A stretch of DNA of 64,000 bases, taken from NCBI GenBank assembly GCA_022385805.1, contig MU277726.1, positions 62,001 to 126,000 of the forward strand, in the 5' to 3' direction. Under the pieces are notes generated by a model, which searched no databases, was not told the origin of the DNA, and saw only the letters and a list, made by a program, of their open reading frames with translations. This document shows, piece after piece, positions 7,391 through 8,951 of this stretch. Origin of the DNA: Pilatotrama ljubarskyi (Eukaryota > Basidiomycota > Agaricomycetes > Polyporales > Polyporaceae). A program made the position numbers and the translations under genes. The stretch's first letter is position 1. Each line of letters begins with the position of its first letter.

Positions 7391-8951
7391 ATGTCTGGAG
7401 AAGGCTCTGAGAGCGCGCCAGTTGTGAACAAGAACAAGAGGCATAGGAAGGAGAAGCGTACGTCCGCACTCTCCCGCTAACCTCTCTTGTCCCGACTGAA
7501 CTGCTCCGGCCAGCTTGGGATACCGATGACATTGACCAGTAAGCTCTCGCAATGACTCTCCACGTCTGATTCGATGTACTTACCTCCTACCTTGCAAGTG
7601 TAAGCATATCTGCACGTCTTCTACATAACTTGTCGTAACACCTCGTGCAGTGGAAGATCGACCCCTTCAAGCCGGAAGACAACAAGGCTGGCCCGTTCAC
7701 CGAGGAGTCCTCGTTTGCGACGCTCTTCCCGAAGTACCGTGAAAAGTATTTGCGGGAAGTATGGAGCGCGGTCACCCAAGCATTAGAGCCTCACGTACGC
7801 TCTTCAAGCACATCATACTGAACCGCTTACTCATCTCACGTCTGCGACGCCAGGGCATCGCGTGTACTCTCGACTTGATCCACGGCTCGATGGCGGTGAG
7901 AACGACGCGTAAGACGTACGACCCCTACATCATCCTCAAGGCGCGAGACATGATCAAACTGCTCGCGCGAGGTGTCGCGGTCGGTCAGGCCGTCAAAATC
8001 TTGAACGACGACATTGCATGCGATATCATCAAGATTGGGAACATCGTGCGTAATAAGGAGCGGTTCGTCAAGAGGCGACAGAGGATCATTGGGCCGGACG
8101 GGAGCACGCTCAAGGTGCGCGCCGCATATAGTCAGAAGACGCGTGCTAAGCTGATAGGATCCAAGGCTATTGAGCTTCTCACGCAGTGTTATGTTCTTGT
8201 GCAAGGAAACACTGTCAGTGTGATGGGACCGTACAAGGGTCTGAAGGAGGTGCGGAGGATAGTCCTTGACTGCATGAAGAACATCCACCCCATATACCGG
8301 ATCAAAGTAAGCAGCTCCCTCCTCGTATATGCGCAAGAACTGAATTCAGTTCTTCACAGGAGCTCATGATCAAGCGTGAACTCGCCAAAGACCCACAACT
8401 CGCGACAGAGTCGTGGGACCGCTTCCTGCCCAAGTTCCGCAAGCGGCACCTCAAGACCTCCGAAAAGACCGCCAAGAAGAACGAGCGGTTACAGGAGAAG
8501 AACGAGGCACGCAAGGCGGCTGGCTTGCCACCGCTCGAGGAGACGAAGAAGGAAAAGTTCGAGAAGAAGGTGTACACACCTTTCCCGCCACCCCAGCAAC
8601 CGCGGAAGGTCGACCTCCAGTTGGAGTCTGGAGAATACTTCCTCAAGGCGCACGAAAAGGAGGCCAGGGAGGCGAAGAAGCGAAAGGAGAAGGTAGGAAC
8701 ACGGTGATACATCTATGTTGCGGTGACTGACCTGCGTCCCATAGCAAGAGGAGGTTACTGCGGAGCGTCGAGCCAAGCGCGCGGAAGCCTTCGTTGCGCC
8801 GGAGGAGCAGGCCGCGCCCACTATTGAGGAGAAGCGCAAGCGTAAACGGGATCGTGCACATGAAGAGGACGACAACCATGATAGAGAGGTGCATGAGGAA
8901 AAGTCGAAGAAGAAGAAAAAGAAAAAGCGGTCGGAAGATGAGGATTCATGA
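7391..8951 (+). CDS. KRR1: KRR1, SSU processome component (KH domain)
   Basis: Nucleolar pre-rRNA processing factor needed for 18S rRNA/40S assembly. Exons 7391-7457, 7514-7538, 7599-7599, 7651-7794, 7854-8114, 8166-8306, 8360-8692, 8745-8951; 392 aa. Family blocks are clear: [42 protein letters not shown], the KH region with [36 protein letters not shown], and [20 protein letters not shown]. The tail is Lys-rich and probably nucleolar. The conserved frame between DDID (ends phase 2 at 7538) and WKIDPF (starts phase 0 at 7651) needs one extra nucleotide. T7599, between acceptor AAG at 7596-7598 and donor GTAAGC at 7600, supplies it, giving DDID-H-WKI. Without it the frame breaks. Confidence 0.92.

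Follow-up and report, generated by a model that had tools for sequence, protein, structure and literature searches.

A very probable single-nucleotide exon in the KRR1 gene of Pilatotrama ljubarskyi

The gene for KRR1, a component of the small-subunit processome that contains two KH domains, very probably includes an exon of a single nucleotide, T7599, in Pilatotrama ljubarskyi (Polyporales, Agaricomycetes, according to a taxonomy look-up). Comparison of the DNA with the proteins of relatives indicates that this base lies between two ordinary short introns of 60 and 51 nt, where it would supply the third base of the codon for a conserved histidine, and a one-nucleotide exon explains this junction far better than any other reading. 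Judging from the protein sequences of other species, the intron pair has probably been inherited widely within the Agaricomycetes.

Gene model and splice sites of KRR1

In the window (the whole stretch of 64,000 nucleotides that was analysed), KRR1 is encoded on the plus strand at 7391-8951, in eight exons including T7599 (Table 1). With T7599, the coding sequence comprises 1179 nt and is in frame, encoding 392 amino acids followed by a stop codon. Five solved sequences that bear the name KRR1 match the model (best E-value 7.9e-135). The public P. ljubarskyi protein BV20DRAFT_971891 (P0001 in our set), in which the Pfam domains KH_KRR1_1st and KH_KRR1_2nd (PF17903 and PF21800) score above the cut-offs, has the same length as the model and shares 391 of the 392 residues with it, the exception being Gln in place of His31. 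KRR1 was found once in the assembly, with no second copy for comparison.

Table 1. Coordinates of the KRR1 gene model in the window
Feature	Positions	Strand	Basis
Exon 1, start codon to phase-1 donor	7391-7457	+	translation, homology
Intron 1, 56 nt, GTACGT...CCAG	7458-7513	+	gene model
Exon 2, 25 nt, (P)WDTDDID plus CA (bases 1-2 of the His codon)	7514-7538	+	translation
Intron 2a, 60 nt, GTAAGC...CTTAC...CAAG	7539-7598	+	gene model, splice enumeration
Putative single-nucleotide exon T, third base of the His31 codon CAT	7599-7599	+	splice enumeration, His in relatives
Intron 2b, 51 nt, GTAAGC...TAAC...GCAG	7600-7650	+	gene model, splice enumeration
Exon 4, begins with WKIDPF in phase 0	7651-7794	+	gene model
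Exon 5	7854-8114	+	gene model
Exon 6	8166-8306	+	gene model
Exon 7	8360-8692	+	gene model
Exon 8 with stop codon	8745-8951	+	gene model
Premature stop TAG, met if 7539-7650 (112 nt) is removed as one intron and T7599 is skipped	7784-7786	+	

Exon 2 ends at 7538 with ...GATGACATTGACCA (GAT-GAC-ATT-GAC-CA), and the next conserved block, TGGAAGATCGACCCC, which encodes WKIDPF, begins in phase 0 at 7651. Donors GTAAGC begin at 7539 and 7600, and acceptors CAAG and GCAG end at 7598 and 7650, respectively; the sequence at 7595-7605 is CAAG-T-GTAAGC, with one base between the canonical AG and GT of two complete introns. The initial annotation of this DNA had placed DDID plus CA up to 7538, the lone T at 7599 and WKIDPF from 7651, and had given a coding length divisible by three; the positions are exact to the base and the length is correct. 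Its description of both introns as typical in size also holds, the other five KRR1 introns, all of them GT-AG, being 56, 59, 51, 53 and 52 nt long. The branch-like motifs that it had assigned to the two introns stand in part: intron 2a contains CTTAC, with 16 nt after the A, as well as CTGAT (29 nt), whereas intron 2b contains two TAAC motifs (22 and 12 nt) and no YTNAY, a less typical branch site than had been implied. KRR1 intron 5 (8307-8359) likewise contains no YTNAY. The acceptor of intron 2a is CAAG and not YAG; KRR1 intron 4 also ends in CAAG.

Alternative splicings of this region were enumerated in two ways. Single introns of the GT-AG, GC-AG and AT-AC types were considered with a donor at 7524-7599 and an acceptor up to 7680; within this range, none with GT-AG or GC-AG ends preserves the frame, as had been claimed for an intron spanning 7539-7650, and no single intron of the three types retains both conserved blocks. 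Three AT-AC pairs keep the frame and were rejected, all of them losing conserved residues. If one extra exon is allowed between the fixed donor at 7539 and the fixed acceptor at 7650, with introns of at least 40 nt, T7599 is the sole solution; with introns down to 20-30 nt, there are two further solutions with GC donors, which add 2 or 4 residues after the His.

The second enumeration considered GT-AG introns of between 40 and about 140 nt in the region 7514-7740, excised in one or two steps, and gave eight frame-keeping protein products. One of these reads DDIDHWKIDPF and results when 7539-7598 and 7600-7650 are both excised, whichever goes first; the other seven, which lack WK or more, were rejected. 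T7599 is needed for the frame, and no other canonical splicing in these enumerations retains the conserved protein by joining DDID through H to WKIDPF, in line with the initial annotation, for which this base was the only canonical GT-AG solution found.

The expectation by chance was estimated from 5000 dinucleotide shuffles of the intron interior in which both introns had to be at least 45 nt long. A one-nucleotide solution was present in 3.9% of the shuffles if every GT donor, whatever its quality, was accepted, and in 0.2% if the donor had to fit GTRNGY; for any micro-exon with a length of 1 modulo 3, the respective values are 11.4% and 0.6%. Across both strands of the window, AG-N-GTRNGY occurs 33 times, and [ACT]AG-N-GTAAGY occurs a single time, at the T7599 site. 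The motif YAGNGTRAGY has 4 matches in the window against 3.66 expected, none of them at the T7599 site, and is unsuitable as a test because the acceptor at T7599 is AAG.

The junction in KRR1 proteins of other Agaricomycetes

The sample of relatives is the union of two homology searches, each protein search contributing the best 120 of approximately 7000-7800 matches as representatives of 90% clusters. It comprises 137 close KRR1 proteins (P0001-P0137), the named ones being from Agaricomycetes, of which 113 are genome-annotated and 24 are denoted here transcript-type, a label that we assigned from the source tags lgn and jgi only and that we take to mean spliced transcripts. Fifteen of the 24 are full proteins from contigs of at most 1561 nt, the span of the KRR1 coding sequence plus introns, and nine are on longer contigs, four of these being 4-8.7 kb in length; the 24 include near-duplicates, and they are placed among the relatives by sequence similarity. 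Seven species were checked for their taxonomy, and the class names of the remaining relatives are those that we take to apply. A distant set consists of the best 120 more distant KRR1 matches, none of which is named as an Agaricomycete. In addition, DNA of relatives was looked for among pattern-matching stretches (79 + 5) from prokaryote and viral contigs, and by tblastn none of these stretches encoded a relative.

All 24 transcript-type relatives among the matches listed read DDIDHWK, including the 15 on contigs of at most 1561 nt, so that the His restored at this position by the initial annotation is the residue found in each of them. The 113 genome-annotated Agaricomycete proteins among the matches listed divide into 36 with H, 39 with Q and 38 that are broken at the junction; the difference between the two classes in the frequency of non-H is significant by Fisher's test (1e-10), for sequences that are not independent. 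The 36 proteins with a clean H could represent a correctly modelled micro-exon or species with one intron. The 120 more distant matches listed contain 58 H, 61 K, 1 R and no Q, in a set that is rich in intron-poor yeasts and controls for residue identity, not for annotation error. The same position can be compared directly in Suillus: the transcript-type protein P0037 agrees with S. luteus in 329 of 334 core residues and with S. brevipes in 328 of 334, and itself reads HWK where the annotated proteins of these species read QWK and HTWK, respectively.

These counts bear on the possibility that the Gln of the public P. ljubarskyi protein, which is otherwise identical to the model, is genuine. 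With CA directly before GTAAGC and a G as the last base of the acceptor, Gln at this position needs a single non-canonical intron, either 7540-7650 (TA-AG) or 7539-7649 (GT-CA), which would create CAG and the sequence DDID-Q-WK. The 39 annotated Agaricomycete proteins among the 113 listed that share this residue speak in favor of such an intron, which nevertheless appears very improbable: both options lack one canonical end although two canonical introns are available, and Q occurs neither in the 24 transcript-type relatives nor in the 120 more distant matches listed. A Gln could also come from an aligner unable to place one base. Given its absence from the 120 distant matches, Gln is best seen as an alignment artefact, presumably from a pipeline in which transcripts supported a codon of three bases, one of which was unplaceable; this may not hold for every one of the 39 Gln entries.

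The broken proteins were analysed in an alignment of the 120 proteins of the first search, 96 genome-annotated and 24 transcript-type. Among the matches listed, 32 of the 96 genome-annotated relatives have an indel within 6 residues of the junction at the one-base exon, compared with 0, 1, 0 and 0 of 96 within 6 residues of introns 3, 4, 5 and 6, respectively, and 6 of 96 near intron 1 (7458-7513), all six of which are also among the 32 disturbed at the one-base exon; none of the 24 transcript-type relatives listed has an indel at any KRR1 intron examined. By these counts, the fault is concentrated at the junction of the one-base exon and in genome annotation. The six proteins with indels near intron 1 (P0008, P0027, P0061, P0066, P0103 and P0108) show a pattern as if exon 2 had been omitted.

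The same distribution argues against an error of sequencing or assembly, in which a base missing near 7538 or 7651 would leave one ordinary intron of 112 nt. A one-base error would also explain the frame, but it is very unlikely, since the mis-annotation recurs at precisely this junction in independent assemblies from dozens of species that were sequenced separately; moreover, 112 nt is about twice the length of every other KRR1 intron (51-59 nt), and a fitting AG-T-GTAAGC in the middle of the intron would be a 0.2% coincidence. We assign such an error a probability still lower than that of the non-canonical intron.

The form of the broken sequences is informative. Some are insertions, for example HVSTFHRWK in Trametes versicolor, QLTRLVESWK in Fomes fomentarius and HTWK in Suillus brevipes, and the others are losses. 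Of the 22 broken proteins among the matches listed that keep DDIDH, 11 continue with V, and 8 of these 11 with VS or VR, which are the residues encoded in frame by the KRR1 donors GTAAGC, GTACGT, GTACGC and GTGCGC; the last donor, GTAGGA, encodes VG. From these apparent HV read-throughs, it appears that a CAY codon directly precedes a splice donor in the respective species, among them members of Trametes, Volvariella (Agaricales) and Vararia (Russulales); the proteins thus give an indirect view of the DNA. One intron after CAY would be simple for a gene predictor, and therefore a second intron before the Y seems the likely cause of the failures. Broken annotations are found in at least seven orders, including Hymenochaetales, Russulales, Thelephorales, Boletales, Agaricales and Atheliales, each looked up for one species; several of the genera with a broken annotation we take to belong to the seventh, Polyporales, the order of P. 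ljubarskyi.

Three further observations concern these proteins. The proteins of Cubamyces menziesii and Trametes cubensis (P0003 and P0008) carry the same insert before WK, RIIILTTCAAS, which is probably intron-derived. P0008 also lacks the DDID block, which amounts to two annotation failures around one junction. Finally, an insertion after residue 46 is shared by six Mycena proteins; it falls within an exon, away from the introns of the KRR1 gene described here.

Proposed two-step splicing

Fungal introns of such size are thought to be recognized by intron definition, not by exon definition. A single base cannot seat the machinery of a 3'- and a 5'-splice site together, and therefore the removal of the two introns would presumably be sequential, introns 2a and 2b being excised consecutively by intron definition; both the splicing and its order are what we infer for P. 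ljubarskyi. Either order would leave usable splice sites. If the upstream intron were removed first, the resulting CAT|GTAAGC would retain the T next to an intact donor, and if the downstream intron were removed first, the T would be retained in CAAG|T|TGG. Annotation pipelines that are unable to model an exon of one nucleotide would be expected to swap the His for Gln, or to invent extra or missing residues.

A related arrangement, known from Ascomycota, is the stwintron, in which one intron lies within a splice signal of a second intron and excision takes two steps with no separate exon. Fungal twin introns of a size similar to that of the KRR1 pair exist (99-nt [D1,2]; PMC5639578), and they share with KRR1 two adjacent short introns and consecutive removal, the latter presumed for KRR1; however, in a stwintron a splice signal of one intron is interrupted by the other and every base between them is lost, whereas among the donors and acceptors tested here the only DDIDHWK product uses two complete, non-nested introns around T7599, with one base kept, and a stwintron at this site is most improbable.

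Returning to the one-nucleotide exon, the two simplest failures of its splicing have defined outcomes in the sequence. Skipping of T7599, with 112 nt removed in one step, leads to the stop at 7784, with four introns downstream of the stop, and retention of intron 2a leads to a TAA at 7540, immediately after a CAG codon. One may speculate that the exon is ancestral to the Agaricomycetes and has been retained since, with the forced two-step splicing serving as a built-in control of KRR1, although we rate this as improbable. Under such a control, the two simplest splice failures would yield a null message, and the efficiency of two-step splicing would govern how much KRR1, and hence how many small ribosomal subunits, the cell makes.

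Known one-nucleotide exons and the genomic neighborhood

The initial annotation had called single-nucleotide exons very rare, and rightly so, although exons of this kind are already on record for APC11, VPS55 and CYP621A. The KRR1 exon would add to a known, very small class and would not be a new kind. The one-nucleotide exons of APC11 and VPS55 are found in land plants (PMC8831610, PMC4674806) and have been validated through RNA-seq as well as RT-PCR, to which reporter constructs were added in the case of APC11 (PMC4674806, PMC8831610); Guo and Liu suggested intron definition and sequential removal for Arabidopsis APC11 (PMC4674806). APC11 and VPS55 resemble KRR1 in that one base between a canonical AG and GT is required for the frame and is missed by genome annotations; wide conservation is a feature of APC11 and VPS55 that, from the protein comparison, would apply to KRR1 as well. 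The difference is that those exons are in plants, in other genes and validated by transcripts, whereas the exon of KRR1 is deduced from DNA and protein comparison.

In fungi, a one-nucleotide exon has been described in the cytochrome P450 gene CYP621A of Fusarium, which the authors regard as the first fungal example (PMC12940212). It has several features in common with KRR1: a fungal nuclear gene with short introns, a lone base completing a codon within a conserved motif, and detection through a frame conflict. CYP621A is an Ascomycete gene, rarely expressed and of unknown function, with G as the exon base (AGGGT) and with SRA reads (PMC12940212), whereas KRR1 belongs to Basidiomycota, has T as the base, functions in ribosome biogenesis and shows annotation failures in at least seven orders. 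A mitochondrial single-base exon has been reported in placozoan cox1 (PMC5436844). Our search of one open-access library found no report of a one-nucleotide exon in KRR1 or in any gene of Basidiomycota.

If the reading of T7599 is correct, a Basidiomycete housekeeping gene would join the few with a reported one-nucleotide exon, there being indications that it is conserved across at least seven orders of mushrooms, and KRR1 would be a ready model for how the spliceosome handles two introns that are one base apart. Such an exon would also explain a systematic annotation fault, namely the Gln or the broken stretch in 77 of the 113 sampled genome-annotated Agaricomycete KRR1 proteins. Junctions at which transcript-derived and genome-derived proteins disagree across species could then serve as a signature for finding more exons of this kind.

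Upstream of KRR1 and divergent from it, the minus-strand ORFs at 6934-7191 and 5844-6770 may form one spliced gene; a 308-aa ORF in 5844-7191 (minus strand) presumably resembles nuclear cap-binding subunit 3. This divergent gene and KRR1 may have a common head-to-head promoter region of approximately 0.2 kb. Farther upstream, we take the minus-strand ORF at 4233-4916 to resemble the N-terminus of a COX15-type heme A synthase, and the plus-strand ORF at 5110-5397 to resemble a BolA-type protein.
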